A DNA stretch of 41,340 nt from positions 1 to 41,340 of the forward strand of contig CAMLML010000036.1 of the NCBI GenBank assembly GCA_946481095.1, written 5' to 3'. Made by a program: the position numbers and the translations under genes. Each line of letters begins with the position of its first letter. Within the stretch, counting starts at the first letter, position 1. Source of the DNA: an uncultured Cellvibrio sp. (GTDB lineage Bacteria; Pseudomonadota; Gammaproteobacteria; Pseudomonadales; Cellvibrionaceae). Shown in pieces: positions 9,075-29,419 of the stretch. The notes beneath the pieces were generated by a model that was given only the letters and a program-made list of their open reading frames with translations, did not search any database and was not told the origin of the DNA.

Positions 9075-10522
9075 TAGCCCACCCTGACGAAATTAATTTT
9101 CTGCCATTTTTTTAGTAAATAGTATCGCGACAACAAAATTGCCACTACTAACACCAAGAGAATAACGACAACTTCTGCAGATCGTTCAACGTTCCACAGG
9201 GTGCAAGCCAGGGAAAACAATATAATAGAACCGAACGCTATGACGGCTTGCCATCCCGTTGCGCCTATTTTGTTATCTTTATCGCGAACATAAACGATCA
9301 TCGAAAAATAGAATGTTGCCACTTCAATAATCAATGCAACCACAAACGAAATCACAAAATCAGATACACCAATAATCTGAACACCCGCTATTTGATTCAA
9401 GGCCAATGCCACCAAGGGAGTAACAAACATCATTTGTAGTGAATATTTCAAGTGATGCTTTTCAATAAAACAAAACAGTTGCCTGCGATCTCCTGGAAAC
9501 AACAACCAAAGTGATTTAATGTTGCGAATAATCGCTGTCAAAAACCCAAAAGATCCAAAAATCGCTGTGTAAAAAACAAAAATAACACCCAGGTATTGCA
9601 TCATATTCTGAAATTTGTCTGCCATTAACCACTTAAACAATACCAGCACTAATAACGTCATCAGCATGATCATAAGACCTGAAGGCAATAAAGACGCGTA
9701 TCCATCTGACATACCCATCAATTTTGTACCCAAAAAACTGTTGGGCTTTGATCTTGGTGCCAAAAAATTCGTCACTGCGATTGCCGCTGGATTAACTGAA
9801 GGATTGGCAGTTGTTCCTGCCGCCATCATCTGCTCCATATTTATTGCAAAATAATTGATAAAATATTTTTGTGGCTTTAGTCTTAACCACCAAAACGCAA
9901 AAGCTAACCAGAACAAAACCAATACAGAAATCAATTGCAAAAAACTCCATTGGGACAATTGTTGTAATATTGGATTGACCACAGCAAAGGTCATAAAGAG
10001 TGCGCTTTGGATTAGAGGGAAACGATAGGCTGTAAAAAACAATGCAATGATAAATGCTGTTGACAGCAACCAAACCTGTAATCCGAAATGACTTAAATAC
10101 AGAAATCCAACCGAATCAGCAATCGACTTAAGCTGGGTACAATCACCTTCTGCACATATTTCTTTTGCAGGCTCAGCAACAATTAATTTAAAGATAATAA
10201 CTGTCAATGGAAGTATCATGCTTAATATAACGGCAACAACAAAATAAAATTTTCTAAAGTCCGTTAAATAACGTAATGACTTGCTACTGATGGTCGCTAT
10301 AGCCTGGCTTGGCAATACAATCAGGATTAATAAAAAATATAAAAAAGCCATAGCCAATAACAGCGGCGCAGTGCCACCCAAATGACCTTTCCAAAACCAA
10401 CCCGCTATCAAAATCAACAAATAGACAATAGATACTGCAATCAATACAAACTTCATAATTCCTAAAGGCATTATCACGGTTTTTATTAATGACCAATAGG
10501 CTCCAATAGTTGTTGCACTCAT
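9074..10522 (-). CDS. polytopic membrane protein, probable ABC transporter permease
   Basis: A 482-residue protein with about twelve hydrophobic segments spread over its whole length and no recognisable soluble domain. The N-terminal portion has two helices, then further pairs around residues 50-75, 95-120 and 145-200, and the last 120 residues are strongly hydrophobic. I do not recognise a named family, but its position directly after an ABC ATPase and before a YtrA-type regulator makes it the likely membrane partner, like the permeases of the Bacillus ytr operon. Start and stop are coupled to its neighbours: the ATG overlaps the ATPase stop by four bases (ATGA), and its stop TAA shares an A with the regulator ATG. 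A basic C-terminus (KKWQKINFVRVG) should be cytoplasmic. Confidence 0.85.
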   Translation of the reverse strand: MSATTIGAYWSLIKTVIMPLGIMKFVLIAVSIVYLLILIAGWFWKGHLGGTAPLLLAMAFLYFLLILIVLPSQAIATISSKSLRYLTDFRKFYFVVAVILSMILPLTVIIFKLIVAEPAKEICAEGDCTQLKSIADSVGFLYLSHFGLQVWLLSTAFIIALFFTAYRFPLIQSALFMTFAVVNPILQQLSQWSFLQLISVLVLFWLAFAFWWLRLKPQKYFINYFAINMEQMMAAGTTANPSVNPAAIAVTNFLAPRSKPNSFLGTKLMGMSDGYASLLPSGLMIMLMTLLVLVLFKWLMADKFQNMMQYLGVIFVFYTAIFGSFGFLTAIIRNIKSLWLLFPGDRRQLFCFIEKHHLKYSLQMMFVTPLVALALNQIAGVQIIGVSDFVISFVVALIIEVATFYFSMIVYVRDKDNKIGATGWQAVIAFGSIILFSLACTLWNVERSAEVVVILLVLVVAILLSRYYLLKKWQKINFVRVG

Positions 10523-12434: not shown

Positions 12435-13865
12435 CTATTTCATAAAACCAAGATTGCTGCTCGCAAAGCGACTGACATTGGGCAGAATAGTGTTAACCTC
12501 GCTCGCACTCACGCCAAACCAACGCGCTAAAGTAGCAGCGAGCTGATCGACAGAGGTTGAGGGCAGCAAGCGGCCCTGGCCAACCTGATCATCGCTGGTA
12601 ATCGAAATTTGTGGTGCTGTTCCATAAAACTGCCCGCCATTAACTGCACCACCCATAATGAAATGATGGCTGCCCCAGCCGTGATCTGAACCATCACCAT
12701 TGGATGCCAGGGTGCGGCCAAAATCCGATGCCGTAAAGCTGGTCACTTTTTCAGAAACACCCAGCTCCACTGTGGCCTGATAAAACGCATTCATGGCTTC
12801 ATCCACTTGCGCCAATAATTTTGGATGATTTTCATTAAGACCATCATGAGTATCAAATCCACCCAGAGATACAAAAAACACCTGGCGTTTTGTACCCAAA
12901 AGATCACGCGCACCGATTAGTCTTGCAACAACTTTTAATTGATCGGCCAATGAATTTTTTTTGCTGTCACGATCAAATGATGTTGATAAGTTCACAGGAT
13001 TTAAGGCTGCGTTAACTACCTCCTCCAATTCCATCGAACGTTTAGTCACTATCGCCAATTCATTTTCCAAAATATGCGGGCTGTTCTGTGTAATTAATTT
13101 TTTTAACGCATTAGACACAGCAGACGAATTAAATGCAGAACCTTTGGCCGCCCAAATGGGGATCGCACCTGAGGGACTGATTTGATATTGCAGCGCATTG
13201 TTACCCGCTAAAAATACCGCGTTACCCGATGCGGATATACAGGTGAGCGTACTGATATTATTGCTGGACAATGCCAGATCGCCCATATAACCACCCCAAC
13301 CTTTGGTTGCACCTTCACTATTGAGTGCCTGCCAAACAGACTGCTGGTCATTATGTGAAAAAAGTTTGGGTGGTAACGGATATTGTACGCGGTCAGACCC
13401 CTGATATTGAGCCAAGGTCAAAGGTGTGAGCAAAGGACCTATATTCAATTGCACAGCAAGCTTGCCCGTATTAAATAAAGACGCCATGGATGTTAATTCT
13501 GGCGATAATGCGTATTCAATATTATTGGTCAGCGTTTGCGGAGTGAGTGTGGTTAATTTTGTTGCGGCAAGCGCACTGTGAGCCAGAGCTATTCCACCTG
13601 CGGTTCGGTCTGCACCGCCGCCGCGAATTTTGCTGTAGAGATCGTAATTAGTGATATCAACCGGTATCAACGTATTACCGTGATCATTTCCACCAAACAA
13701 AAAAACGCAAACCAATGCTTTATAGTCGCTGGCTTCAAACGCGGCGGCCTCACCAATACCGGCAAGATTCAGTGCGAGTGGTGCACCCACCCCCATCATA
13801 GAAAGTGCGCCAGCCCTTTTTAAAAAAGCGCGGCGAGTCATGTCATTAATTTTATTGATGTGCAT
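12435..13865 (-). CDS. DUF1501 family protein, Tat-exported
   Basis: A 476-residue DUF1501 protein. The N-terminus MTRRAFLKRAGALSMMGVGAPLALNLA is a twin-arginine signal, so the folded protein should be exported by Tat. Family motifs present are VCVFLFGGNDHGNTLIP, the sulfatase-like VSLGGFDTHDG, and TASDFGRTLASNGDGSDHGWGSHHFIMGG. DUF1501 belongs to the alkaline phosphatase-like superfamily, but no biochemical role is established for this branch. AGGAAAG lies nine bases before the ATG at 13865; MTRRAF at residue 9 is an alternative start. It follows the DUF1800 gene by 17 bases, and this two-gene pairing is widespread in bacteria. Confidence 0.95.
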   Translation of the reverse strand: MHINKINDMTRRAFLKRAGALSMMGVGAPLALNLAGIGEAAAFEASDYKALVCVFLFGGNDHGNTLIPVDITNYDLYSKIRGGGADRTAGGIALAHSALAATKLTTLTPQTLTNNIEYALSPELTSMASLFNTGKLAVQLNIGPLLTPLTLAQYQGSDRVQYPLPPKLFSHNDQQSVWQALNSEGATKGWGGYMGDLALSSNNISTLTCISASGNAVFLAGNNALQYQISPSGAIPIWAAKGSAFNSSAVSNALKKLITQNSPHILENELAIVTKRSMELEEVVNAALNPVNLSTSFDRDSKKNSLADQLKVVARLIGARDLLGTKRQVFFVSLGGFDTHDGLNENHPKLLAQVDEAMNAFYQATVELGVSEKVTSFTASDFGRTLASNGDGSDHGWGSHHFIMGGAVNGGQFYGTAPQISITSDDQVGQGRLLPSTSVDQLAATLARWFGVSASEVNTILPNVSRFASSNLGFMK

Positions 13866-13882
13866 GGCGACTGCTTTCCTGG

Positions 13883-15652
13883 TTATTTTTGAATTAAATA
13901 TTCTGGGCTAGCGACCACTAATAAAATAGCCGCATAAAGACGATCATATTTTGCATTGGTAGAGCTTGCACTTGTAACAGGGTTTGCTTCCAGAGCTTGC
14001 TGAATTAAATCGGTTGTAGTGGTAGAAAGTTGGTTGGCAGACAAATGTAAATTCAACCATTCAACCAGGGCTTTTGCATCAGTGGCCAAATGGGCAATTT
14101 TTGCCAAATTTATTTTTACATCGGCATAACCTGATTTAATAAAATAAGACACCATGTTGATATAGCCCGCCGTAGAAGTTTCATTGTGCAATTGAAATTC
14201 AGGCGCTAATAAAGATTGTGCGGCCAAAGCAGTATTAGGTGGCACATAACCGGGACGAAAAAAATTAAATACTGAAGGCGATCGCAATGGTGATTGACCC
14301 AGGCCGGTATCCGCATTGGAGAGGTCATAAATTTCCCATTTGCCATTAGTGCTACTCACGTCAAACGTACGCGCGATTTGTGTGAGCCTGACAATAGGTT
14401 CACGCAGCTTTCCCGCAATAGTATTGTTGACTGACGCACGCGCTTCAGTGTCCGTTAAAATCGCACGCCATACTGCTTTTAAATCACCACGCACATTTGC
14501 GCCATTGTTATTAAACACAGCAGCAACACGCTGAACATAAGCAGGGCTTGGATTGGATGTCACCAATCGCTGAATCATTTGTTTGCAAAAAAACGGCCCT
14601 GTATTCGCATGATTAAATAAAGTATCCAATGCAATGCGCAAGGCTTCAGCACCGGGAGTATTGGCAGGAATCTGGGCACCCAAAAAATTCACAGCTAAAT
14701 TCGAATGTTTATTGGCATCAAATCTCATGCGACCACTGGTAAATTCAGGCGTGGGGACGGGATAATCTTCGAAACCGGGTTGCTGCGTTACTTTTGAATA
14801 ATCCCAATCGTAACCGGTAAATACTCGCGCAAGATTGGTGATATCAGATTGCACATAAGTTTCAATAGCTTGACCCTGTGCGTTGGTTTTTACTGTGCCG
14901 TCCAGATTTAATTCGTAGAGACCGATAGAAAACAATTGCATGATTTCACGCGCGTAGTTTTCATCGGGTAACCTGCCGCTGGCTGGATCCTCTTTTAAAT
15001 TGCCTTTGGTATTGAGGAAAAATCCCATCGCCGGATTTAGTGAAATATCTTCAAGCAGATTTCTGAAATTATCGAAGACTTTTGCGTTGAGCAAATCCCA
15101 ATAACCTGCAATTAACATCGGCGGCCAAAAACCATCGATCGGATTTAATGACACCACAAAAAATTCGGAAAGTGCGAGTGCCAAACGCTTGCGTACCTGG
15201 CCTGTGCCTGTGAGCAATTGATTCCAGGCCATCCAGTCGCCAAAAACAGGATTAAAGTAATTTCCTGAATGATTGGGTGTTGCGTGGCCACTGGCTGTTA
15301 ACCATTGCGCGCCGGTTTGATCTATAGGTAAATTAAATTGTGCAGTGAGCCAGGCATCGTAACCCGTAGTTCTTACCGAGAGAATTTCTTCGTCGGTTGC
15401 CGTGAATTGTGCTTGCAACAAGAAGCGGGCAGCTTCGGCCTCACTGTAGCGAAGCGCGACGCTGGAACTGGCTGAACTGGCAACAGAGGAAGTTTGACTG
15501 GTCCCGCCACCACTACTGCCGCTCCCACCACAACCGCTACTGGCCAGTGCCGCTAATCCAGCCAGGCCCAAGGGTGTGCTGTCGGTCAACAAGGAGTCAT
15601 TTCTAACAGAATCAGGTGAACTCGCTACATCTACCAGGTTGTTATTATGCAT
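13883..15652 (-). CDS. DUF1800 family protein with serine-rich linker
   Basis: A 589-residue DUF1800 protein. After a Ser/Gly/Val-rich linker (residues about 41-66) the family core starts at YSEAEAARFLLQAQF and includes ATDEEILSV, NYAREIMQLFSIGLYELN, FTGYDWDY, FDANKHSNLAVNFLG, GPFFCKQMIQRLV and SPSVFNFFRPGYVPP. Function is unknown; it is nearly always paired with DUF1501. The N-terminus is odd: LGLAGLAALASSGC (to Cys41) looks like a lipobox but is preceded by about 26 polar residues with a single Arg, so it is a poor classical signal peptide. AGG sits six bases before the ATG. Serine-rich linkers of this kind are typical of Cellvibrio-type exported proteins. Confidence 0.93.
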   Translation of the reverse strand: MHNNNLVDVASSPDSVRNDSLLTDSTPLGLAGLAALASSGCGGSGSSGGGTSQTSSVASSASSSVALRYSEAEAARFLLQAQFTATDEEILSVRTTGYDAWLTAQFNLPIDQTGAQWLTASGHATPNHSGNYFNPVFGDWMAWNQLLTGTGQVRKRLALALSEFFVVSLNPIDGFWPPMLIAGYWDLLNAKVFDNFRNLLEDISLNPAMGFFLNTKGNLKEDPASGRLPDENYAREIMQLFSIGLYELNLDGTVKTNAQGQAIETYVQSDITNLARVFTGYDWDYSKVTQQPGFEDYPVPTPEFTSGRMRFDANKHSNLAVNFLGAQIPANTPGAEALRIALDTLFNHANTGPFFCKQMIQRLVTSNPSPAYVQRVAAVFNNNGANVRGDLKAVWRAILTDTEARASVNNTIAGKLREPIVRLTQIARTFDVSSTNGKWEIYDLSNADTGLGQSPLRSPSVFNFFRPGYVPPNTALAAQSLLAPEFQLHNETSTAGYINMVSYFIKSGYADVKINLAKIAHLATDAKALVEWLNLHLSANQLSTTTTDLIQQALEANPVTSASSTNAKYDRLYAAILLVVASPEYLIQK

Positions 15653-17510: not shown

Positions 17511-19169
17511 ATGACTCAATACATCAGCAACTACGCCAAAGTCTACAATCTTCAAAAATTGATTCGCGTCTACACTTACTATCGTGTAGTGCTGGGGTGC
17601 CTGTTATTACTTATCTTGCAGTTGGATTTTGCCCCGAAAGTAATTGGCCAAAACAATAACCTGACCTTTTATACTTGTGTTTTTTACACAATCGTCAACA
17701 TTGTCACCCTGTTTCTTACGTCGAAACAAACGCTGCTCAATACACAAAAATTTCCATTCCTTTCCTGTCTTGCCGACATTGTCATACTCAGTTACTTGAT
17801 GCATTTAAGCGGCGGCGCTTTAACCGGAATAGGCTATCTACTACTCGTCACCATCGCCGCAGGCGGCATGATGCTGCGCGAACGCACAGTGATATTTTTA
17901 GCTGCCATCACCAGCCTGATTATTATTTCCGAAGGACTTTATCGATATTTATTTCTGATACAGGAAAATCGCTCTCTTTTTTCATCTGCATTGCTGGGAA
18001 CGCTGTCATTTGTTACGGCGATTTCATTCCATTATTTCTCACAAAAATTGCGCACATCCGAAGCGGAAGCAATCGCCCAGTCTGAACATATTGCGCACCT
18101 GCAACGATTGGCCCAACTTATTCTGGAACGTATGCGCACAGGCATTATGGTATTAAATAAAAATCAGCAAATTGAACTCTATAATAAAGCTGCCATGCGG
18201 CTATTGGACTTACCGGTTGATAAACAGCATATTCAACATCTGTCACAATTGCCTGAATTATTTGATAAATGGAATTCATGGAAAGAGGGACACGCTGATC
18301 ACTCACCGCTATTAAGCTTACCCAAGCAAGTCACCTCTGAAATCAAAGTAAATTTTGCAGAACTCGAACCGGGAAATAACAGCGAGGATCATTTGATTTT
18401 TCTGGAAGATGTTCGTTCACTGCATCAGCAAGCACAACAATTAAAACTGGCATCTTTGGGGCGATTAACTGCCAGTATTGCCCACGAAATCCGTAACCCT
18501 CTGGGTGCAATAAGCCATGCGAGCCAGTTACTATCCGAGTCCACCCATCTGCAAGATACCGACTTGCGATTACTTGAAATGATTCAAAACCACAGCAAAC
18601 GAGTGAATTCGATTATTGAAAATATTCTGCAGCTATCGCGACGTCGAGCATCACAACCCGAGAAAGTGGATTTGTTCAAATGGATACCTCACTTTATTAA
18701 TGAGTATCAATATAGCCTTAAAAATAAATACGATGTCACCATTGAATTTTTGGTCAAAAATATCAGTAATCAATTTCCAGGAGACGAAGAGGATGTTGTT
18801 CGTGAAAAACTGGAAGCCAAATTTGATACCAGTCAACTACAACAGGTATTAACCAATTTATGCGACAATGGATTACGTTACACACAAACCAAAGACGGCA
18901 AAGCGACATTGCGCATTGAAGCCGGGACTGACAGACTACAACAACAGCCCTATATTCGGGTGATTGATTATGGCAACGGAATTGCAGCCGATATAGTTGA
19001 ACATTTATTTGAACCTTTTTTTACAACAGAAAATACAGGATCTGGACTCGGCCTCTATATATGTAAAGAATTGTGCGAAGCTAACCAGGCTTTTATCAAC
19101 TATCAATTTACAGCCGAAGGAGAAAGTTGTTTTCATATACAATTATCACATCCTGACAAACTACAATAA
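17511..19169 (+). CDS. pilS: PilS sensor histidine kinase
   Basis: PilS is the membrane kinase of the PilS-PilR pair that controls type IV pilin transcription in Pseudomonas. The 552-residue protein has about six membrane segments in residues 25-175, a short PAS-like region (about 200-300), the HisKA domain with phospho-accepting His325 in ASIAHEIRNP, and an HATPase domain with N-box NLCDNGLRYT, G1 DYGNGIA and G2 GSGLGLYI, plus the F-box FEPFFTTENTGSGLG. No strong Shine-Dalgarno site precedes the ATG, but the next in-frame start would cut into the first membrane segment. The response regulator gene starts 11 bases after its stop. Confidence 0.93.
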   Translation: MTQYISNYAKVYNLQKLIRVYTYYRVVLGCLLLLILQLDFAPKVIGQNNNLTFYTCVFYTIVNIVTLFLTSKQTLLNTQKFPFLSCLADIVILSYLMHLSGGALTGIGYLLLVTIAAGGMMLRERTVIFLAAITSLIIISEGLYRYLFLIQENRSLFSSALLGTLSFVTAISFHYFSQKLRTSEAEAIAQSEHIAHLQRLAQLILERMRTGIMVLNKNQQIELYNKAAMRLLDLPVDKQHIQHLSQLPELFDKWNSWKEGHADHSPLLSLPKQVTSEIKVNFAELEPGNNSEDHLIFLEDVRSLHQQAQQLKLASLGRLTASIAHEIRNPLGAISHASQLLSESTHLQDTDLRLLEMIQNHSKRVNSIIENILQLSRRRASQPEKVDLFKWIPHFINEYQYSLKNKYDVTIEFLVKNISNQFPGDEEDVVREKLEAKFDTSQLQQVLTNLCDNGLRYTQTKDGKATLRIEAGTDRLQQQPYIRVIDYGNGIAADIVEHLFEPFFTTENTGSGLGLYICKELCEANQAFINYQFTAEGESCFHIQLSHPDKLQ

Positions 19170-19180
19170 TCACATTAACC

Positions 19181-20587
19181 ATGGCCCATCCTATGACCAA
19201 ACGTGTATTAATCGTTGATGACGAACCGGATATCCGGGAACTGCTGGAAATTACTCTTGGCCGCATGCAATTAAGTACGGAAACAGCAAAAACTATTCAG
19301 GAAGCAAAACAAAAATTGGTTGTACATGAATTTCAACTTTGTCTTACCGACATGCGACTGCCCGATGGCAATGGTTTGGAATTGGTTGAACATATTCAGC
19401 ATCAGTTTTCAGGCTTGCCCGTTGCAGTGATTACGGCTCATGGCAGTATTGATACCGCAATCGACTCAATGAAAGCCGGTGCGTTTGATTTTCTTACCAA
19501 GCCGGTTGATCTCAATCATTTACGGAAATTGGTTACTACCGCGATACAAACAACACAAATAAATCAACCCGTAATCAAAACCACCGCCATTATTGGTCAA
19601 TCTGCAGCGATTGAAGAATTAATCAAAAATATTCAAAAACTATCGCGCTCACAAGCACCGGTTTATATCAGTGGTGAATCAGGATCAGGAAAAGAATTGG
19701 TTGCCCGCTCAATTCACGAATTGGGTCCGCGTTCAACCAAACCATTTATCGCAGTCAACTGCGGCGCCATTCCCCGCGAGCTGATGGAAAGTGAATTTTT
19801 CGGCCATAAGAAAGGCAGCTTCACTGGTGCACATCAGGACAAAATCGGTTTATTTCAAGCTGCAGAAGGCGGTACTCTTTTCTTCGACGAAGTTGCCGAT
19901 TTACCTTTGGATATGCAAGTAAAACTCTTGCGCGCAATTCAGGAAAAAGCCATACGGCCTGTTGGTGCCTCCGATGAAATTATGACGGATGTTCGCATTC
20001 TGTGTGCAACACACAAATTACTGGATCTTGAAGTCAAAGAAGGACGTTTCAGGCAAGATTTATTCTATCGATTGAATGTCATTCAATTGGCAGTCCCGCC
20101 ATTGAGAGAAAGACGCGAAGATATTTTATTATTGGCCGACCATGTTCTGCACAAAATTGCTTTTTCGTTAAACACCAAAAAGCCGGAATTAACTTTCGAA
20201 GCAAAACAAAAACTGGAAAATTATCGATTTCCTGGCAACGTCAGGGAACTGGAAAACATTCTGGAACGCGCATTTACACTGTGCGAAAGCAATAGAATTG
20301 ATGCCAATGATTTACAGCTTAATCAACACAATCATCACTTCAACGAAAAGCCATCCAATGGATTATCAAATTTAAATCCAGCCCAGCACAGCAGCGATGT
20401 GGATTATCCGGAATTATGCGCCACCTTCCCATCAATAGATGATTATCTACAACAAGTGGAAAAAAATATTTTATTGAATGCACTGGAGAAATCACGTTGG
20501 AACAAAACGCTCACCGCAAAAAAGTTGGGCATAACCTTTCGTTCATTGCGTTATCGTTTGCAAAAATTGGGGCTGGATGACGAGTAA
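19181..20587 (+). CDS. pilR: PilR sigma-54-dependent response regulator
   Basis: PilR activates sigma-54 promoters of pilin genes when phosphorylated by PilS. The receiver domain (residues about 8-125) has Asp57 in LTDMRLPDGNG and the acidic pair in IVDDE. The AAA+ domain has Walker A GESGSGKE at 165-172, the sigma-54 contact loop GSFTGA at 212-217 (a Ser variant of the usual GAFTGA), Walker B GGTLFFDEV and R-finger region PLRERREDI. The C-terminus is a Fis-type helix-turn-helix (NKTLTAKKLGITFRSLRYRLQKLGL). An alternative ATG four codons later is possible. It ends at a shared terminator with convergent pilE. Confidence 0.95.
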   Translation: MAHPMTKRVLIVDDEPDIRELLEITLGRMQLSTETAKTIQEAKQKLVVHEFQLCLTDMRLPDGNGLELVEHIQHQFSGLPVAVITAHGSIDTAIDSMKAGAFDFLTKPVDLNHLRKLVTTAIQTTQINQPVIKTTAIIGQSAAIEELIKNIQKLSRSQAPVYISGESGSGKELVARSIHELGPRSTKPFIAVNCGAIPRELMESEFFGHKKGSFTGAHQDKIGLFQAAEGGTLFFDEVADLPLDMQVKLLRAIQEKAIRPVGASDEIMTDVRILCATHKLLDLEVKEGRFRQDLFYRLNVIQLAVPPLRERREDILLLADHVLHKIAFSLNTKKPELTFEAKQKLENYRFPGNVRELENILERAFTLCESNRIDANDLQLNQHNHHFNEKPSNGLSNLNPAQHSSDVDYPELCATFPSIDDYLQQVEKNILLNALEKSRWNKTLTAKKLGITFRSLRYRLQKLGLDDE

Positions 20588-20643: not shown

Positions 20644-21072
20644 TTACCAACATCCTGCGGGGGTTTTAGCACCGGTGTGGGTTAGTGTCAGAGTAGTGCA
20701 ATCTCCTTGCTTGGTGTCACTCAGTTGCGGTGCTTTTACTGCCGTCGCAGTTAGAGTGTAATCCGATGATGGCTCATCTTCATCCACAAACGCTATTGTA
20801 ACTTCATAAAAACCACGACCTTCGGAGGTAACTTTTTTACCTTCTTTCAACGCCTCATACGCTTGACAGCCCTCTTCAGGATTATATCTGCCATACAAGG
20901 TGTAGCAACGTTGGAGACGAGCTGCCAAATTCAGCAGCTCGGTTTTACCTTCGGCCCGGTTGGACTTCATGACATATTGCTGGTAATTCGTGAAAGCAAA
21001 ACTAGCTAAAATCCCTAGAATCACCACGGCAATCATCATCTCAATCAACGAAAATCCAGTTTGCTTTTTCAT
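20644..21072 (-). CDS. pilE: minor type IV pilin PilE
   Basis: A 142-residue prepilin. The leader MKKQTG is followed by the class III cleavage site and mature start FSLIEMMIAVVILGILASFAF, with Glu5 present, so it is processed by PilD. The globular part has cysteine pairs (CYTLYGRYNPEEGC and CTTL...GCW) typical of PilE, and the length fits. It is the last gene of the minor pilin operon, starting seven bases after the pilY1 stop. In Pseudomonas PilE couples the minor pilin priming complex to the major pilin. Confidence 0.93.
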   Translation of the reverse strand: MKKQTGFSLIEMMIAVVILGILASFAFTNYQQYVMKSNRAEGKTELLNLAARLQRCYTLYGRYNPEEGCQAYEALKEGKKVTSEGRGFYEVTIAFVDEDEPSSDYTLTATAVKAPQLSDTKQGDCTTLTLTHTGAKTPAGCW

Positions 21073-21079
21073 AATTTAC

Positions 21080-24000
21080 CTACTTGATTTGGCGCCATGA
21101 AATACGACCACTCTTTTTACCACCGGGAGGAGCCGTAATATCAATTTGCTCGCATTCACCTGTGATACTACAAGCCACACCTTCAGTTCTGGTTTTATTG
21201 TCATCAGAAACAATCACCAATTCACCGGGAATATAGAAGTCAAGAATAGCACCACTTGCCTCTTCATTCTCATGTATCGGGTATTTGGAGCGAATGTGAT
21301 TTTCCAGAGCAGAATAGCTATTGGCATATTGATCGCCCACACCTACCAACTCCATCAACCAACCCGAACCCCCAAAGGTACAAGCATCAGAGTTTGGAAT
21401 CATGGTTGTAAAAAGCAATCTATCGTAAATATAAGACGACTTGGTAATAACTCTCTCCGCTGCCGGGAAATTCAAATACCACCCATTTTTTGTTGCCCAA
21501 TCAACCGGGATTACCCCAGACGTACCCATATCATTCACATCACGAGCGATCGGTTTTGGAGGTACATCCGAGTTATACAAGGTAGTCATACTTTTTTGAT
21601 GAAGTGTTGCACTCGTAACCGGTGCTCCGGAATCTGCTATGCCATAAAAAGAATTCACAGGAGTTGAGCTGGAATCAGCAACGGTTATGTAACTACCTGT
21701 ACCAAAGTAAACCATAATTGCATCAGGGCCTCCTGCCGTAGCCCCCGACTTGGTACCCAAGGTAGGTGAGGCTGTTATGGGTTTTGTGGTGCCTGCACTG
21801 AATAAAGGTGCGTTATACACAGGTGTCAACCCGGTTGAATAACCACTGGAGATATTAAACTTCCACATATCACCACGGTAATCCCCAGCGTAAGCGTATT
21901 GGTAGCCAACATCAGCTGAAGCCCTGTAAAGTGCAGGCCCTGCGAGTCCATTATCCATAGCGGTATTAGTCGGTACAGCACCACTATAAGTCGGATTAAA
22001 AGGAGCCTGAAGATCTATGATCATCAAGTAAGCTCTACCGTCTGTGCTGTTATATCCATTACCTAACACTACCGACCAACGACCGTTCACAGGCGCTATA
22101 TACATTTTGCCCATCACGTTACCGATCTCAGGATAGTCCGCTGCTGTTACTTCAAATAACACATCGTTTTCATCGAAATTTTCCGGATCAGTGACATCCA
22201 ACACAAAGATACCTCTGGATCCTGCACCCGTTGCACCAACCAGAATGTTCCGCCATTTAATACCATCTCCATCACCGGTATCTATGTAGGCATCACCAAC
22301 ATACACTGCCCCATCAACCAAATAAGTATGCGCAGTTCCCGCCCCATAAGCTGTGGAAGCCAAGGCTGGTAATTTGCTGTAAATGGAGGAAGGAACGTAG
22401 GCAAAAACTTCTGTTCCGCAAGTAGGTGTGGCGGTGCAATCTGTTCTGAATCCATGCAGCATCCCGTCATTTGCGCCCACGTAGAGAATATCCGGACGTG
22501 CGGATTTCACGGTATCAACATAGCTTTGATAAGTCGCTGAACCATATGCAGAGGGCAAAGTTTCAAACCCTTGCGATTCCACACCCGCATAGACGGGTGA
22601 TGAGTTCACTATATCGCCCAACAGGTTTTTAACTCCTTTATCGGTCACTCGAGTTCTATAACTTGCAACATCATCTCCCCTGACCCAATTTTGTACAGCT
22701 TGCCCAAGGGTATCACCGCCCAAATCAGCTTTTTGAGTTGCACTTAGCTCATTCCAATTAGTGTTATTAAACTCAAAACCTTCATCAGAAACAGGGTTAT
22801 AACTGTATATTTTCCTGCCAGAGGAAGAAATTAATTTCCCCATGGTAGACCAGGTAACACTGAAATCAGCCAAGTCTTTTGAATAACGAAGAGCCCTGAT
22901 TTCACCATGCCAACTGGACTTTAATGCACCGGAGTTATCTTTTTGAGGTGGGTAAAATAATGCCTGGTAAACACTGGTAACAGTCTCAAGTCGGGTTGAG
23001 TTAGTAGAAACCCCTGAACCTGTTGCACTATCCCTTCCTGCTTCATCAAAGATCTTGGTCAGTTTTGCTTCCAGTAAAGAGGGGTTCTTCATCAGGAAAT
23101 AATTATCGGGAATTGTATCCGCAGTGGTAGCCCCTGCGATATTGGTGACATCCCACTCCCCTGCCTGATCAGGTCTCCCATTACCATTCAGATCTGTAAA
23201 GCCACCGTATTTTGCTGCGTAAAACAAAGGGGTTTGTAAATTGGTCAAACTGCTCGCCAGTGGAGTTGTTGATTTGGTATAGGTAGACTCCAGGAAATAT
23301 TTATTTGAAGCTGTATTGGCAGGATACAAAGATACAATGTTGTTTGACTCAGTCTCTGCCATCACGTCGTACCACTGAGTTGGATTTTGTACTTTCTGTG
23401 GAGTTGTAAGGCCATGGGTATCATAGCCACCACGGGTCACCCATTGACTGGTTTGTACGCCTGTAGTTGTACTGGTGGTTCCTTCTATCAAGTAACTCAT
23501 ATACATCCTGCTGGTGCCGGTGGCCCAATAGGGCATGCTATTGGTGATTTTAATCTGATTCGACGGTACTGATGGGCTACAAGCAGAACCCACACAAAAC
23601 GCTATACGCTGTACCGAGTCCATATCATAGTCGGACGCCCAAGGTTGATCCTCCCAATAAAACAGGTATTGGCCAGAAATGGGGTTACCCGCCAAATCAT
23701 TTACAATTTTTTCAACCCTTACCCCCACCAATGAACATTCATTGGCGTGTGCGCCATTTGTGCAGACGGGCACAATTGATACCTTCCCACCTCCCACAGG
23801 AATATCAAAAGTGGGCAACCCCTCTGACAACTCAACAGCATAGGTGTTAACAGTCTGTGAACCTGAATAGCCTGTTCGTAAATCATTGGTTCTGGCCCAA
23901 TAAGCTAATCCAGCAACCCCATAACCACCTCTTGTAGTAGGAGATTCGGGACAAAACCCTCTCAAATCAGACAACTTGTAATCTGAAACAAGACATTGGT

Positions 24001-26089
24001 TTGCATAACTACCAGATGAATATCCCATGAAGAACTTATTAGTCGTTGCACCAAACTCCTGATTACCAATGTTATCTATTGCGGTATTCAAACTGGTTGA
24101 AGTCAGACTTGAATTGATTGTGCTTAAAAATGTCGTAGACAAATCATCCGTATCAAATGAATTGGGACCACTGGACAAGATCACTATTGAGCATTTTGAA
24201 CACCATGAAGCAGAGGGAAGAGGATCATCCCAGTCTGCAGATAGAACTCGACTTAAACCCGTTATAGAACCTGAGTCATCAGTATCAAACGATGAATAGG
24301 CGGCTTTTTTCCCTGCAAAATAACGAAGAGTTTCTCCGTAAATTTCTGCAATAGGATTCCTCCAGTCATTGTTATTGTTATTGTTATAGGATCTGTCGCC
24401 ATCCGTACTACTGTAAGTAAACTGGCTGATACGGAATAAATTAATGTTATGGATAATCCCTTTTACATTAGGATTAAAAACACCGGTAGTTTCCGAGAAC
24501 TCATTAACACTGTCAGTCGTGGTAAAGGTATTACCGGCAATCCTGCCCGCTTTTTTACGCAGCACACCGCCCTGACCGGGCTTTGTCCAGGTTCCTGTAA
24601 CCAATCCAAAATTAATATCCTTGTATTTCTTCTGCAGAACACCAATAGGCTTCAGAGAGGTAAGAGGTGTTGTGTCCGTCGTGTTGAATGCCATACATCC
24701 TTTTAATTGACCATCAACAGAATTGTACAGATTGGTATCAGCATCTTTTCCGGGAACACAAACTTTCACTTTAGCAACCAATTCCCCTTTTCTACTATCA
24801 ACGGTAGGAGAGGTTTCCCTGGTGTGATCAAGATGCTCTGTCGAATCACCCGAGTTCTTTTTACGCCATTGACACTGTTGTATTTCAGTGTGCGACCAGT
24901 TATGCCAGACACCGGATGCAACACGAATAACCGGATATCCATTGCTGGAAGCTGTAGAAACATTACACACGGAAATAGATGATTCTGTGTAAGGCGTGTA
25001 TGAACTTACATCAGTTCCCTCATAGACTTTTACAAAAGCATGGCTATCTTTGGGTACAAACGCTCTCTCCAGAATAGTTTCAGCGGGCGCACTGGATGTT
25101 GTTGCTGTATCCACTGACCGCAAACCGCCGTACAAAACCTTTCTAACAATATCCATGCGGGTCATACTTGCCCAGTTAAGGAAGTTCCCACTCCAGCGCC
25201 CAGCTGTGTCGGCATAAGACCCGCCAGAAGCAACGGAGCTTGAAGAACTTGAAGAACTTGATATTGAGTAACCGAAAACGTTGAATTCGTAAATGATGTA
25301 TCGATTATCAGCTTTAACTGTTGCATTAACCCGCACATAACGAGCGTTTTGGTTGACGCTGTTTATAGTGAGCGTACCACCGACTCCTGTTGTTGTGTTG
25401 TAGACGTTTGTCCAAGTGGAATTATCAGATGAGATCTGCACCGCATAACTTGTTGCATAGTCCGAAGAGTCCCAGTTAATTGAAATACTCTCTATTCTTT
25501 TTACTGTTCCCAGATCAACTCTCAACCAGGCAGAAGAGTTACTACCCGTGCTTGTCGATCTCCAACGGGTGCTGTTGTTATTATCAACCACATTACTTGC
25601 GGCATTTGAGCCGCCACTCTCTGTTACCCCTGATTGTGCCTCGGCAGTAGACGATAATTCAGTAGCAGCAACTGATGAACTTGAACTCGATGAACTTGAG
25701 CTCGATGAACTTGAGCTCAATGAAGAGCCTCCATCACATTTATGATTAACTGCCGCCTTAACAGGATAGTAGTAGCTGTTACCAGTCGTTGTTGCATCAA
25801 CGTAATAGCCATAACACCAATCAGGATCAAAATAACCGGAATATGTAAAATCATTTCGATATGTCAGATCCTGCGACCTAAGAGACCCGCCATCCAAATT
25901 GGAATAGTCGGGGTATGCCTTATAAAAAAGCTCCTGATCACGAGACATTGCCAGCATGACAACAGGGCGAGCTGACGCACCAATGAATAGAGGGGTTTGA
26001 GCCAAATCAAGTGCATATGAAGGTATTCCTGAAGCAGTCAGCAAAAACACGCTGATATATTTCGTCATATTTTGAATCAAGGATTTCAT
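21080..26089 (-). CDS. pilY1: PilY1 pilus tip protein with inserted discoidin/CBM32-like domain
   Basis: PilY1 sits at the pilus tip and takes part in pilus priming, adhesion and surface sensing. The 1669-residue protein has a signal peptide (about 1-27), an N-terminal PilY1 start (LFIGASARPVVMLAMSRDQELFYKAY), a 15-serine linker (125-139), a discoidin (F5/8 type C)-like domain at about 145-274 (STRWRS, AWLRVDLGTVKRIESISINW, ARYVRVNATVKADNRYIIYEFNVFG), a second polyserine linker (276-284), then the rest of PilY1. The MIDAS-type DxSxS motif of the Pseudomonas von Willebrand A region is absent. EF-hand-like loops occur at 601-610 (DTDDSGSITG) and 965-979 (DLNGNGRPDQAGEWD). The C-terminal beta-propeller begins near 1158 (DIVNSSPVYAG) and contains ARPDILYVGANDGMLHGF. 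GAGG lies eight bases before the ATG. Confidence 0.93.
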   Translation of the reverse strand: MKSLIQNMTKYISVFLLTASGIPSYALDLAQTPLFIGASARPVVMLAMSRDQELFYKAYPDYSNLDGGSLRSQDLTYRNDFTYSGYFDPDWCYGYYVDATTTGNSYYYPVKAAVNHKCDGGSSLSSSSSSSSSSSSSSSVAATELSSTAEAQSGVTESGGSNAASNVVDNNNSTRWRSTSTGSNSSAWLRVDLGTVKRIESISINWDSSDYATSYAVQISSDNSTWTNVYNTTTGVGGTLTINSVNQNARYVRVNATVKADNRYIIYEFNVFGYSISSSSSSSSSVASGGSYADTAGRWSGNFLNWASMTRMDIVRKVLYGGLRSVDTATTSSAPAETILERAFVPKDSHAFVKVYEGTDVSSYTPYTESSISVCNVSTASSNGYPVIRVASGVWHNWSHTEIQQCQWRKKNSGDSTEHLDHTRETSPTVDSRKGELVAKVKVCVPGKDADTNLYNSVDGQLKGCMAFNTTDTTPLTSLKPIGVLQKKYKDINFGLVTGTWTKPGQGGVLRKKAGRIAGNTFTTTDSVNEFSETTGVFNPNVKGIIHNINLFRISQFTYSSTDGDRSYNNNNNNDWRNPIAEIYGETLRYFAGKKAAYSSFDTDDSGSITGLSRVLSADWDDPLPSASWCSKCSIVILSSGPNSFDTDDLSTTFLSTINSSLTSTSLNTAIDNIGNQEFGATTNKFFMGYSSGSYANQCLVSDYKLSDLRGFCPESPTTRGGYGVAGLAYWARTNDLRTGYSGSQTVNTYAVELSEGLPTFDIPVGGGKVSIVPVCTNGAHANECSLVGVRVEKIVNDLAGNPISGQYLFYWEDQPWASDYDMDSVQRIAFCVGSACSPSVPSNQIKITNSMPYWATGTSRMYMSYLIEGTTSTTTGVQTSQWVTRGGYDTHGLTTPQKVQNPTQWYDVMAETESNNIVSLYPANTASNKYFLESTYTKSTTPLASSLTNLQTPLFYAAKYGGFTDLNGNGRPDQAGEWDVTNIAGATTADTIPDNYFLMKNPSLLEAKLTKIFDEAGRDSATGSGVSTNSTRLETVTSVYQALFYPPQKDNSGALKSSWHGEIRALRYSKDLADFSVTWSTMGKLISSSGRKIYSYNPVSDEGFEFNNTNWNELSATQKADLGGDTLGQAVQNWVRGDDVASYRTRVTDKGVKNLLGDIVNSSPVYAGVESQGFETLPSAYGSATYQSYVDTVKSARPDILYVGANDGMLHGFRTDCTATPTCGTEVFAYVPSSIYSKLPALASTAYGAGTAHTYLVDGAVYVGDAYIDTGDGDGIKWRNILVGATGAGSRGIFVLDVTDPENFDENDVLFEVTAADYPEIGNVMGKMYIAPVNGRWSVVLGNGYNSTDGRAYLMIIDLQAPFNPTYSGAVPTNTAMDNGLAGPALYRASADVGYQYAYAGDYRGDMWKFNISSGYSTGLTPVYNAPLFSAGTTKPITASPTLGTKSGATAGGPDAIMVYFGTGSYITVADSSSTPVNSFYGIADSGAPVTSATLHQKSMTTLYNSDVPPKPIARDVNDMGTSGVIPVDWATKNGWYLNFPAAERVITKSSYIYDRLLFTTMIPNSDACTFGGSGWLMELVGVGDQYANSYSALENHIRSKYPIHENEEASGAILDFYIPGELVIVSDDNKTRTEGVACSITGECEQIDITAPPGGKKSGRISWRQIK
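25228..25262. repeat. 9-bp repeats encoding the second PilY1 polyserine linker
   Basis: GAAGAACTT-type units repeat in tandem in this stretch and encode, on the minus strand, the shorter polyserine linker (PilY1 residues 276-284) that follows the discoidin-like domain. Length change in whole units would keep the frame. Confidence 0.65.
25673..25717. repeat. three 15-bp tandem repeats encoding the first PilY1 polyserine linker
   Basis: CGATGAACTTGAGCT occurs twice exactly (25688-25702, 25703-25717) and once with two to three changes (25673-25687). On the coding strand each unit gives five serines with mixed AGC/TCA/AGT/TCA/TCG codons. As units are multiples of three, slippage would lengthen or shorten the linker without a frameshift. 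Confidence 0.85.
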
Positions 26090-26150: not shown

Positions 26151-26684
26151 TTAAGGCCCTGGAACAGAATTACCCACTTCATAAGTCGATTGCACTATTG
26201 CTTCAGAATTTACTGTCAGGCCAAAAGCCCGGCTGGTAATCCGATAGATAGTGGAACTCCCACCGGAATCAGTGAAAGTACCTATTTTCTCAACCACATA
26301 CTGTGGATACGCCGGGAACTCAACTGACAAGTCATCATCATCCAGCTGGATCGAATTAGCTTCCCACTGTTCGGCAGTCCAATTTTTTATACTCCCTTCA
26401 GAGGATAAAGGTTTGTTTTGATCCATATACAAACCGTCTTCTGTTTCATCAAACTTGTACGCAGCACCGTTCTTGGCTATATCTTCTTCAGCAAAACGCA
26501 ACCCGGCTTCAGCTGCCTGAAATGCCAAATTTCGATCATGTAGATTACCTGCCATAGCCTCTTGCATCGAGCTACCACGGATCGAGGAAACAGCAATTAC
26601 ACTCATTAATCCAACCATAATTAAGGTAACCAGCAGCACCATTCCCTGCTGGGATTGCCTGTTTGATTTTGGGAAATTTCTCAT
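26151..26684 (-). CDS. pilX: minor pilin PilX
   Basis: A 177-residue PilX-type protein. The leader MRNFPKSNRQSQQG precedes the processed N-terminus MVLLVTLIMVGLMSVIAVSS; position 5 of the mature protein is Val, not Glu, as in PilX and the related GspK, which cap the fibre. The family-typical helix follows (SSMQEAMAGNLHDRNLAFQAAEAGLRFAE). I chose the ATG at 26684 because GGAG lies six bases before it; a TTG four codons earlier has no such site. It starts 12 bases after the pilW stop, inside the minor pilin operon. Confidence 0.93.
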   Translation of the reverse strand: MRNFPKSNRQSQQGMVLLVTLIMVGLMSVIAVSSIRGSSMQEAMAGNLHDRNLAFQAAEAGLRFAEEDIAKNGAAYKFDETEDGLYMDQNKPLSSEGSIKNWTAEQWEANSIQLDDDDLSVEFPAYPQYVVEKIGTFTDSGGSSTIYRITSRAFGLTVNSEAIVQSTYEVGNSVPGP

Positions 26685-26696
26685 AACAGTCTCCAA

Positions 26697-27692
26697 TTAT
26701 TCCAAGCGGCTGCGAACAGCAACTGTGCTGACAAAAACCTGTCTCATTGCTCTATCGCCTGCCGTTACCGCGGCACTGCCTAATGGAAAGCTATAAGCCT
26801 GGGCTTCAGGTAAAACCGTTGTTTCAGGGGTTCTCACCAATAATTCAAAATGCACACTTTTTACATTAATCCAATCTGCATCATCCACATCGGCAGCGAC
26901 TTCATATACATCAGGAACATTATTGTTATCAGTATCAATGCCATATTGAATATCCATATCTTCAACACCTTCAACCAACTCGGTACTCACTCCGTTTTCC
27001 CATAACCACAAACTGGGTATTCCCGCTGTATTATTTTTGATATAGAAAAGTAATTTACGCATTTCAATAACCTCTGCACCTGCACTAAACAACTTATCTG
27101 TCCAAGCTGTTGTGGCATTACCTGGTGTGGATCCCGCTGCATGATTAATGGTCAACTCGGTGGTACCGCTTACAGATGTTGCCTGAAAAATCTGCGCCTT
27201 CTGGCAATTAGATGCCACCAAAATATCACCGGCACATAATCCACCTGATGCACACACACTAGGAGTGGTAGTCACTGAATCAATTGTTGTATCTCCTGTT
27301 ATCAATACCTGACTACCACTACCACTGACCACTTCAAGTACGTCTGTATCTTCAACCAGATCTTCCAAATCAAGATCGGCTTCATCATCTGCGGTATAAC
27401 CTTTTACAATTGTTTTATAGTCCCAACGAAAATCAGTTGCCGACCCCAGAGTTGTAATAATTTTTGAATCATCAACATTACTCGCACATCCCAAAAAACC
27501 TGCCATGCGAATTTCTTTATTCATATAGTCAATTGCAAACCGTCCACTCTCCTGGATACGGGATATTGCTTGCTGTGACACAAAAGCACCCTTGCTTCCA
27601 AGAAATACATTGAGTACACCTAACATCAACATCAACCCTAATGTGATGGAAATCATCAACTCAATTAACGACAATCCAGATTGCTTGTTCAT
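26697..27692 (-). CDS. pilW: minor pilin PilW
   Basis: A 331-residue PilW, the large minor pilin comparable to GspJ. The leader MNKQSG precedes LSLIELMISITLGLMLMLGVLNVFL with Glu5, followed by the family segment QQAISRIQESGRFAIDYMNKEIRMAGFLGC. The long globular part contains scattered cysteines. The ATG at 27692 has AAAGG seven bases before it and gives a six-residue leader; an ATG at 27707 that overlaps the pilV stop by four bases (ATGA) would give an 11-residue leader and may be used for coupling. It works with PilV, PilX and FimU in the tip-priming complex. Confidence 0.93.
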   Translation of the reverse strand: MNKQSGLSLIELMISITLGLMLMLGVLNVFLGSKGAFVSQQAISRIQESGRFAIDYMNKEIRMAGFLGCASNVDDSKIITTLGSATDFRWDYKTIVKGYTADDEADLDLEDLVEDTDVLEVVSGSGSQVLITGDTTIDSVTTTPSVCASGGLCAGDILVASNCQKAQIFQATSVSGTTELTINHAAGSTPGNATTAWTDKLFSAGAEVIEMRKLLFYIKNNTAGIPSLWLWENGVSTELVEGVEDMDIQYGIDTDNNNVPDVYEVAADVDDADWINVKSVHFELLVRTPETTVLPEAQAYSFPLGSAAVTAGDRAMRQVFVSTVAVRSRLE

Positions 27693-27703
27693 TTCACTAC
27701 CTT

Positions 27704-28168
27704 TCATATTTTTGAGGTATAGGCAAAAGCTTCTATCGTTGTATTTTCATCACCCGCAGACTCGCCCAGCTCAGTCCAACGAATTTCAACACTACACTCA
27801 TAATTATCACAATCAATTTTTGCTTCCCCATCTGGAAGACTTGCTTTTACTGCAGCGAGCCACGCTTTCAAATCTTCCTCCCTGAAACTTGTACCCGTAG
27901 GACTTGCACTATCAAAATCAATTGTGTACTGAGACGATTGCAATCTGTTAATCCGAATCCGATCAATAATATCGTAAGCCAACATACTGGCCTGAGAACG
28001 CAAATAGGCACTCTGGTTAAACTGTAATGACCGGGTTTGCAAACCGGACAAAGTCACCAATGCGGTTCCAAAAACAAGCATTGCAATCAACACTTCTATC
28101 AGCCCCACACCTTTCTCACGAAACAAAGTCCGATTTTGAATTTGTATTTTGTTATTGATTCTTTTCAT
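27704..28168 (-). CDS. pilV: minor pilin PilV
   Basis: A 154-residue PilV (GspI-like) prepilin. A rather long basic leader of about 20 residues ends in REKG, and the mature start is VGLIEVLIAMLVFGTALVTLSGLQ with Glu5. The segment RSQASMLAYDIIDRIRINR is typical of the family. Its ATG follows the fimU stop with no gap (TAGATG), and its stop overlaps the first possible pilW start, so it is translationally coupled on both sides. Confidence 0.92.
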   Translation of the reverse strand: MKRINNKIQIQNRTLFREKGVGLIEVLIAMLVFGTALVTLSGLQTRSLQFNQSAYLRSQASMLAYDIIDRIRINRLQSSQYTIDFDSASPTGTSFREEDLKAWLAAVKASLPDGEAKIDCDNYECSVEIRWTELGESAGDENTTIEAFAYTSKI

Positions 28169-28693
28169 CTAGCACCCCACAGCAGACTTTGATGTAGACC
28201 CGGATAACTTGACAGTAACCTGACTGGCATGAGTACCTGTACAGCCTTCTGTTTTAATTGAAAAAATTGTTTCTGTTGTGGACATCCCGCTGGGATTGAA
28301 GATGATGCTTTTGATTCCTGTCGTTGCGCCCTGACTGGCCGTAATTGTCACATGCTCATCGCGTCCGGGATATCGTGGAACAACTCGCAATAATTCATCT
28401 GTGGTTAAATCTTTATAAACAATCATTCCCTGACGCCAATCAGTGGCCGTAGCATCGCAACTTGTTCCATTAGTTGATACACAAACACCAACTGGATTCG
28501 CTGATTTAACAGCTTCGGCACGTGCAAACATCAGGGTTGCCATCAAATCTTCACGAACAGCCGTTGCTCTATTATTAGCACTCCACTCCTGAAAATTGGG
28601 CGCGGCCATGGCCAGCATTATCCCCAAAATTACCACTACTATAAGCAATTCAATAAGGGTAAATCCGGATGTTGGTTTGATTTTTGTGGTCAT
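28169..28693 (-). CDS. fimU: minor pilin FimU (GspH/FimT family)
   Basis: A 174-residue GspH-type pseudopilin. The leader MTTKIKPTSG is followed by FTLIELLIVVVILGIMLAMAAP with Glu5. The typical segment NNRATAVREDLMATLMFARAEAVKSANPVGVC and a C-terminal cysteine pair (EGCTG... VGC) match FimU of Pseudomonas. It is the first gene of the fimU-pilV-pilW-pilX-pilY1-pilE operon and has GAGAG upstream of the ATG. The call of FimU rather than FimT rests on its leading position and is not certain. Confidence 0.88.
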   Translation of the reverse strand: MTTKIKPTSGFTLIELLIVVVILGIMLAMAAPNFQEWSANNRATAVREDLMATLMFARAEAVKSANPVGVCVSTNGTSCDATATDWRQGMIVYKDLTTDELLRVVPRYPGRDEHVTITASQGATTGIKSIIFNPSGMSTTETIFSIKTEGCTGTHASQVTVKLSGSTSKSAVGC

Positions 28694-28858: not shown

Positions 28859-29419
28859 ATGAGCAACAAGCTTACTTCAGATTTTTCAACCCGCAATTCA
28901 AAAACGCCTTATTTCCATCGATATCAAGGTTTCAGTTTAATAGAACTGTTAACCAGTCTGGCAGTTATTTCTATACTTCTATTTGCAGGTGTGCCGTCCA
29001 TCACCAAAGTCGCATATGACTACAAAGTGAAAACAGCAACGCAGAATTTACTGACTGCAATACAAACAACCAGAACTCTCGCTGTCATGAAACACAAACG
29101 CGCAGTCTTGCGAGCCAAAGACGAATGGCATCATGGATGGGAATTGTTCATCGACGATAATGACAACGGCAAACGGGATAGCGACGAACAACTTATTTTT
29201 GAACAACCAGAATTGGGACAACTCACTATCACAACTACCACGAAAACAATGAAAGTCATTTCGTTTATTGCAACGGGTGAAAGTCGTCAGGCAAAAGGAT
29301 CAACCGGTGGTTCTTTTTTAGCGGGAACATTGAATATTTGCAGCGCCGGAAAAGCAGGATACAAACTTATTTTAGCTCGAGGTGGCAGAGCCCGGATCAG
29401 CAAAACAAGCTGCTCTTAA
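28859..29419 (+). CDS. fimT: second GspH/FimT-family minor pilin
   Basis: A 186-residue prepilin. The long leader of about 23 residues ends in YQG, followed by [23 protein letters not shown] with Glu5 and the GspH-family helix [29 protein letters not shown]. The segment [26 protein letters not shown] is a typical FimT/GspH feature, with an Asp-rich loop that might bind a metal ion. GGAGGG lies five bases before the ATG. It faces away from fimU and meets ispH tail to tail, sharing the palindrome CTTAAG in which both stop codons lie. Gene symbol by analogy with Pseudomonas fimT. Confidence 0.88.

Follow-up and report, generated by a model that had tools for sequence, protein, structure and literature searches.

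Work on other species assigns to PilY1 and the minor pilins the priming of the pilus and a place at its tip, and in one set of well-studied PilY1s vWFA and DUF4114 are the sole conserved N-terminal domains identified (PMC13190605). Acinetobacter ComC, a PilY1, has lineage-specific, finger-like insertions in the vWFa domain of its N-terminal region, and deletion of one finger impaired adhesion, twitching and DNA uptake (PMC10374093). In Streptococcus sanguinis, PilC, a component of the type IV pilus that modelling places at the tip, bears a lectin module for which glycan binding was shown (PMC9934059). Here we describe a pilY1 gene on a contig of an uncultured Cellvibrio sp. (CAMLML010000036.1, positions 1 to 41,340; this whole stretch of 41,340 nucleotides is hereafter the window), whose product has a carbohydrate-binding module (CBM) of family CBM32 inserted between two serine linkers in its N-terminal part.

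Like the vWFA- or DUF4114-bearing PilY1s of Pseudomonas and Myxococcus, this protein combines a variable N-terminal region with a conserved C-terminal propeller and a minor-pilin operon; unlike them, it carries a CBM32 module, which, as with the CBM73-like modules described below, belongs to neither domain. The ComC finger differs in being a Tyr-rich protrusion, which the available text does not name a carbohydrate-binding module, and for which it mentions no Ser-rich tethers (PMC10374093). S. sanguinis PilC is the closest functional analogue, although it is a pilin with a C-terminal ConA-like lectin from a monoderm bacterium, and neither a PilY1 nor a CBM32 protein (PMC9934059). A search of the open-licence literature, with subscription journals outside its scope, returned no record of a CBM on PilY1; where PilY1 and discoidin are mentioned together, the words refer to different proteins in the text available. 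The protein is organised as follows:

21080-26089, minus strand: pilY1, open reading frame (ORF) of 1669 aa; PF05567 E=1.3e-36, PDB 3hx6 E=2.7e-51
25736-26011, minus strand: PilY1 N-terminal block ahead of the insert, residues 27-118, beginning after a signal-like stretch (read by eye)
25673-25735, minus strand: linker 1, residues 119-139, with Ser15 at 125-139 (25673-25717)
25262-25672, minus strand: CBM32 (F5/8 type C) module, residues 140-276; PF00754 and PF22633
25220-25261, minus strand: linker 2, residues 277-290, with Ser9 at 277-285 (25235-25261)
21083-25219, minus strand: PilY1 past the insert, residues 291-1669, starting near the conserved WSGNFLNW block
21839-22621, minus strand: PilY1 beta-propeller match, residues 1157-1417 (PF05567)

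The insert as a whole spans residues 119-290 (25220-25735). Within it, residues 158-262 score 72 bits with F5_F8_type_C (PF00754; cut-off 28.2, E=6.3e-20), and the module also reaches 63.9 bits with F5_F8_type_C_2 (PF22633; cut-off 27.8). The module is predicted to adopt a discoidin beta-sandwich fold, while residues 121-146 and 273-296, around linkers 1 and 2, have pLDDT values below 50, which we read as disorder. A viral structure library gave general F5/8C-type matches only among the 50 matches listed. The C-terminal part is a PilY1 beta-propeller by its match to PF05567, and the PilY1 structure 3hx6 aligns with residues 1154-1668. An earlier note, made from the sequence alone, had described a run of 15 serines, an F5/8 type C-like module and a second serine run inside a PilY1, with ordinary PilY1 sequence resuming afterwards, and had suggested profile, structure and homologue comparisons as checks. 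Its description holds throughout: both serine runs, the motifs it quoted from the module and the WSGNFLNW block after the insert are present, the profile matches exceed curated cut-offs, the predicted fold agrees, and the host is PilY1 by domain and structure.

In CAZy usage, a CBM is appended to a carbohydrate-active enzyme. None of the Pfam matches of the window PilY1 at E<=1 is to a catalytic domain, so the module is CBM32-type by sequence and fold and not part of such an enzyme. Neither VWA nor DUF4114 families matched the protein at the same threshold (Pfam, E<=1), and a PDB structure search with the 986-residue model listed the CBM32 part only; a vWA-like core may nonetheless be present, as this model search barely tested the PilY1 head. 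At the DNA level, linker 1 is a 15-bp tandem repeat (25670-25724) and linker 2 a 9-bp repeat (25239-25261); modules could move more easily if repeats of this kind changed in length or recombined with one another.

To place the insert among its homologues, we searched 5.8 billion proteins with words from residues 1-500 and scored the 7985 candidates sharing most words, of which 441 passed E 1e-3; the figures for this search rest on the best 120 of these 441. Beside the window protein (P0001), P0002 and P0003 are PilY1s with PF00754; P0017 also bears PF00754 but has no PilY1 domain, and was excluded from PilY1 counts. The Y-x-G-Y-F motif and NFLNW are 214, 209 and 199 residues apart in the three carriers, against 30-53 in the 117 other PilY1s listed. 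They are 28-51 residues apart in 35 of 41 PilY1-like ORFs of the retrieved loci, the other six being without the motifs. Over 87 aligned residues, the N-terminal blocks (27-118) of the three carriers share 86-88% identity, and roughly the first 330 residues past the insert, counted from GRWSGNF, show 84.6% identity with P0003 (325 aligned) and 62.1% with P0004 (319 aligned). An assembly accident is unlikely, as P0002 and P0003 have an insert in the same place although their flanks differ from those of the window protein by about 15%; in view of these two carriers and of the module's native base composition (43.8% GC, window 42.9%), we rejected an artefact or chimera. One further PilY1 (P0019) has Ser9 at the insert point without a module, which suggests a tolerant loop.

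Close carriers appear to be few. A protein search with the module alone returned 27 proteins from 1568 candidates, with P0002 the sole PilY1; it missed P0003, which shows the limit of this search. Among 144 genomes of the family, of which 98 gave matches, the best match listed reached E=6.0e-37 from one flank alone; a close carrier would score far better, but a diverged one may lie beyond the matches listed. Across the order, 31 of 390 evenly drawn genomes had CBM32 matches at E<=1e-10, the best at 80 bits, compared with 200-238 bits for the three training proteins in a different search set-up. The PilY1 motif occurred in just P0001, P0002 and P0003 of 88 retrieved proteins or translated frames matching the PilY1-module profile, a check that covered loci L143-L154, part of the order-level matches. 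Four of the loci with long ORFs in that order-level search (G191, G252, G177 and G229) were inspected by eye and none looked PilY1-like.

We then traced the history of the insert in a PilY1 tree (FastTree, 748 columns, 155 PilY1s, midpoint root), leaving out five ORFs, one of which is cut while the other four are of a vWA-like type. The three carriers group together (support 1.0) inside a clade of 13 tips (0.992). Its remaining ten members, which include duplicates of a single genome, are without the insert. Their modules likewise form a clade among 157 domains (0.956). As the carriers are one clade among PilY1s without the insert, a single gain is the simplest reading of the trees. The module has since diverged unevenly: P0001 and P0002 share 80.5% identity in the module and 84-87% in the flanks, whereas P0001 and P0003 share 46.8% and 85-86%. 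Tree distances for the P0003 module are 0.94-1.03, against 0.18-0.22 for the flanks, and the second linker of P0003 has no run of five Ser. The FastTree core tree places P0003 with P0001 (0.847), while the module tree places P0001 with P0002. We considered a recent module swap in P0003 and dropped it; an approximately unbiased (AU) test on 864 flank columns rejected none of the three arrangements (P0001+P0002 p=0.15, P0001+P0003 0.635, P0002+P0003 0.505), and we therefore claim only faster divergence of the module.

The closest solved relatives of the module are the CBM32 domains DD1 and DD2 of the Paenibacillus sp. IK-5 chitosanase/glucanase (PDB 4zxe, 4zy9, 4zz5, 2rv9, 2rva). Shinya and colleagues reportedly identified, in 2016, Glu14, Arg31, Tyr36 and Glu61 of DD2 as ligand contacts, and the chitosan-binding type of DD1 and DD2 is said by the same authors to be marked by Glu14, Arg31, Tyr/Glu36 and Glu61. 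The window module does not have this set. Its aligned equivalents are E157, R175, S180 and D207, with Tyr36 replaced by Ser and Glu61 by Asp; in P0003 they are S, Y, a gap and H. Against 154 other CBM32 domains, Glu occupies the Glu14 position in 88 (E, E and S in P0001, P0002 and P0003), Arg the Arg31 position in 143 (R, R, Y) and Glu the Glu61 position in 143 (D, D, H); with a gap in 128 of these domains, position 36 is hardly comparable. The window module also differs from DD1 and DD2 in sitting on a PilY1 instead of an enzyme, in one extra residue after the Glu61 position, and in the loss of a G-Y-S type loop.

The loop is present in 145 of the 154 domains (absent in nine) and absent from all three PilY1 modules, and the spacing of two conserved aromatics in PilY1 modules is one residue longer than in 150 of 154; two others have the longer spacing of the PilY1 modules, and the last two are two residues shorter. 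Outside PilY1, the longer spacing and the missing loop are combined just in P0142, a multidomain protein that has a secretion-sorting tail; its two domains show both features and are also the sister group of the PilY1 modules (0.792). As P0142 shares both changes, alteration after capture looks the same as capture out of another CBM32 subgroup. A donor among Cellvibrio glucanase CBM32s was considered and is unsupported, the spacing and loop being shared with the P0142 domains alone.

CBM32 domains with Ser-rich linkers, as in the window, do occur in GH16 and Glyco_hydro_cc ORFs (the latter of which we take to be GH128-like) in genomes of the same family; the earlier note's argument from the polyserine linkers of plant-wall hydrolases holds. 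The best CBM32 domains of ORFs L037, L039, L040, L042 and L048 are each 38-44% identical to the window module. These enzyme-borne domains keep the G-Y-S loop, whereas the PilY1 modules group with P0142. Elsewhere, CBM32 is joined to a di-haem oxidoreductase-like protein (Pfam DHOR; L046:2623-5325), and L041:5108-7684 looks similar by eye. The known ligands of the family are diverse: the discoidin domain of a Paenibacillus beta-1,3-glucanase bound chitin more than lichenan and lichenan more than Avicel (PMC2789033), the IK-5 modules bind chitin, chitosan and cellulose (PMC12154041), and the CBM32 of AlyQ binds cleaved alginate (PMC5651945). With such diversity, family membership points to no single ligand.

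A different module is found on other PilY1s. Seven of them start with a Cys-containing module, some 65 residues long, that resembles CBM73, a family of chitin-binding modules, and continue with a Ser-rich linker: P0028, P0036, P0039 and P0062 among the 120 matches listed, and G035/L072, G140/L074 and G033/L070 in family genomes (the G033 linker consisting of Ser, Thr and Pro). In a Pfam scan of six carriers (L070 outside), CBM_5_12 stayed below its cut-off of 26.2 bits in P0039 (25.3), L072 (22.5), P0036 (21.9) and L074 (15.4), and did not match P0028 or P0062. A profile of the seven modules matched best the CBM73 of Cellvibrio japonicus CjLPMO10A (6z41, E=9.8e-10), followed by chitodextrinase, CbpD, chitin deacetylases and GbpA. 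It gave matches at E<=0.001 in 76 of the 144 family genomes; the three best are the three PilY1s because the profile was built from them, and seven of the eight other scanned ORFs with such matches have GH18 or GH19. At E<=1e-14, the order-level search with this profile found matches in 2 of the 390 genomes, in ORFs (856 and 561 aa) that do not have the size of a PilY1, and a search with the CBM73-like region of P0039 found itself alone, from 2 candidates.

The CBM73 of CjLPMO10A has three exposed aromatics (W371, Y378, W386) and two disulfides (PMC8449059), for which we tested the pairs 340-396 and 366-372. Cys366 and Cys396 are present in all seven PilY1-borne modules and Cys372 in six (Cys340 is outside this tally, as the reference fragment starts after it). 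Unlike the CjLPMO10A domain, which the N-terminal PilY1 modules resemble by profile, six of the seven lack at least one of the exposed aromatics; all three are present in the G140 module alone, versus 27 of 28 compared modules. The comparison set came from 45 modules of other best-scoring loci, with 17 lacking the Cys366/Cys372 pair (CBM5-like) set aside, and aromatics were counted at the three positions only, neighbouring positions not included.

In the PilY1 tree, CBM73-like carriers make up a nine-tip clade (0.685) that also holds P0103 and P0046, the listed sequences of which begin inside the domain, and G026, where just the Ser-rich tail is present. The G140 protein lies elsewhere in the tree, and the G033 PilY1, which has a DDSGSM motif, was left out of it. 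The module would thus occur in at least three PilY1 lineages, although transfer of N-termini between PilY1s could lower this count. The G026 PilY1 itself (L063:6333-11015) has a Ser-rich N-terminal tail and no module; it may have lost one, or may still have to gain it. Modules of this kind can be hidden by start calling, as deposited P0069 (1454 aa, Cellvibrio zantedeschiae) begins inside the L072 ORF (L072:5387-10420, G035), whose frame of 1678 codons starts upstream with a signal-like segment, the CBM73-like module and about 77 mostly Ser residues. We also noted, at the same ileS-side locus in some genomes of the Cellvibrio group, a shorter PilY1 type of 1222-1370 codons (L060, L062, L069 and L070, in G022, G024, G031 and G033) with the DDSGSM motif, which is like a vWA metal site; L062 and L069 had no Pfam VWA match at E<=0.1.

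The window pilY1 lies in a pilus gene cluster, with four minor-pilin genes (GspH, Tt1218-like, PilW and PilX) upstream and a ComP_DUS pilin downstream. Its neighbours are:

26151-26696, minus strand: pilX, minor pilin (PilX_N/PilX Pfam)
26697-27707, minus strand: pilW, minor pilin (PilW Pfam)
27704-28168, minus strand: pilV-like minor pilin (Tt1218-like Pfam)
28169-28693, minus strand: fimU/GspH-like minor pilin (GspH Pfam)
20644-21072, minus strand: pilE-like minor pilin, directly downstream of pilY1 (ComP_DUS, PF16732, E=7.1e-18)
17511-20587, plus strand: pilS and pilR regulators (6TM_PilS/HisKA and Sigma54_activat/Response_reg matches)

The family matched by the pilin adjoining pilY1 (20644-21072), ComP_DUS, is that of the DNA-uptake-sequence receptor. 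Farther upstream are genes that, by their Pfam matches, correspond to ispH (LYTB), an FKBP-type isomerase, lspA (Peptidase_A8) and ileS, with 5.3 kb between ileS and pilY1. The IleRS encoded in the window shares 80-88% identity with that of genomes G015-G034 (78% for G018; G025 and G032 compared by partial matches) and 82% with that of G035, and we take the source to be a Cellvibrio or a near relative of it. Another GspH/N_methyl pilin-like gene (28859-29419, plus strand) is divergent from the minor-pilin cluster. Genes for DUF1501 and DUF1800 stand side by side at 12435-15652, and a 482-aa ORF (9074-10522) had no Pfam match at E<=0.001.

Taking the insertion, fold, linkers and gene context as observed, we think it probable that PilY1 captured a CBM32 module which serves as a glycan grip displayed at the tip. 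By analogy with other species, the pilY1 product would be a tip-associated adhesin and assembly factor of the type IVa pilus. In a single event within a Cellvibrio-like lineage, a CBM32-fold module would have entered a loop of the N-terminal part that tolerates changes in length, and the Ser-rich linkers, resembling those of the family's hydrolases, would have come along. The module would fold independently, tethered at both ends by disordered-looking serine linkers; with such tethers and independent folding, it could hang from the tip without keeping the PilY1 core from folding and priming the pilus, a display that we infer from known PilY1s. The module is likely to bind a glycan, most likely a glycan end or surface outside the cell. 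This contact would add a specific, compliant grip, loadable by retraction, to pilus attachment, twitching or feeding. A gain of adhesion is what we infer from this; plant biomass as the target is a guess. The earlier note's observation is correct and not a matter of chance, and its interpretation, a retractable pilus that grips polysaccharide, is supported in part.

Other functions for the module are conceivable. It might bind the cell's own exopolysaccharide (EPS) or surface glycans and serve cell-cell contact and group twitching instead of gripping food polysaccharide. Own glycans differ between strains, and the rapid divergence of the P0003 module would be in keeping with this; the binding site is unlike most of the enzyme-borne ones compared; the DUF4114 proteins PilY1.1 and PilY1.2 of Myxococcus have moreover been suggested as EPS binders (PMC13190605). 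We nevertheless consider this unlikely, as the closest solved relatives come from a chitosanase/glucanase. All three modules have lost the common loop, Arg31 and Glu61 are lost in P0003, and six of seven CBM73-like modules lack the full set of chitin aromatics, which could also mean that sugar is no longer bound, leaving a spacer, mechanical or decoy element, for instance one that alters tip shape under force or shields the tip against pilus-binding phages. The discoidin fold has non-sugar roles too (IFT25), and adhesion, twitching and DNA uptake depend on the non-CBM finger of ComC (PMC10374093). Yet two unrelated sugar-binding folds on PilY1s of one polysaccharide-using family would be a large coincidence if they were plain spacers, P0001 and P0002 retain the Glu14 and Arg31 equivalents and the G140 module retains all three aromatics, so we rate a spacer as slightly less probable still.

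A functionless cassette of linkers and module, captured by recombination and merely tolerated, would be in line with the few carriers and with P0019, whose Ser9 at the same point indicates that the loop tolerates such sequence. It fits poorly with three proteins that keep the reading frame and the fold-defining residues while their flanks differ by about 15%, or with the reduced second linker of P0003, and we regard it as very unlikely. The preferred explanation remains capture of a CBM32 module for a glycan grip at the tip.

From the CBM73-like PilY1s it is clear that, in Cellvibrionaceae, PilY1 has been fitted with sugar-binding modules of enzyme type more than once, and the presence of two kinds of carbohydrate-binding-type modules on PilY1, both with altered ligand faces, is the more interesting result. 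We tentatively suggest, as a possibility, that the PilY1 tip in this family is a docking platform for hydrolase-type CBMs, with at least four separate gains (one CBM32 in the internal loop and CBM73-like N-terminal modules in at least three PilY1 lineages), Ser-rich linkers and binding faces changed afterwards. If so, the pilus would be specialised for substrates by module exchange, as enzymes are.

What PilY1 grips has been a long-standing question in several species. A tethered domain from a family with measured sugar ligands, with close module-free relatives at hand, offers a natural test. A glycan grip of this kind would tie the attachment of polysaccharide degraders to the same kinds of module as their enzymes, and the specificity of the pilus tip could change by module gain in one gene at a conserved locus.

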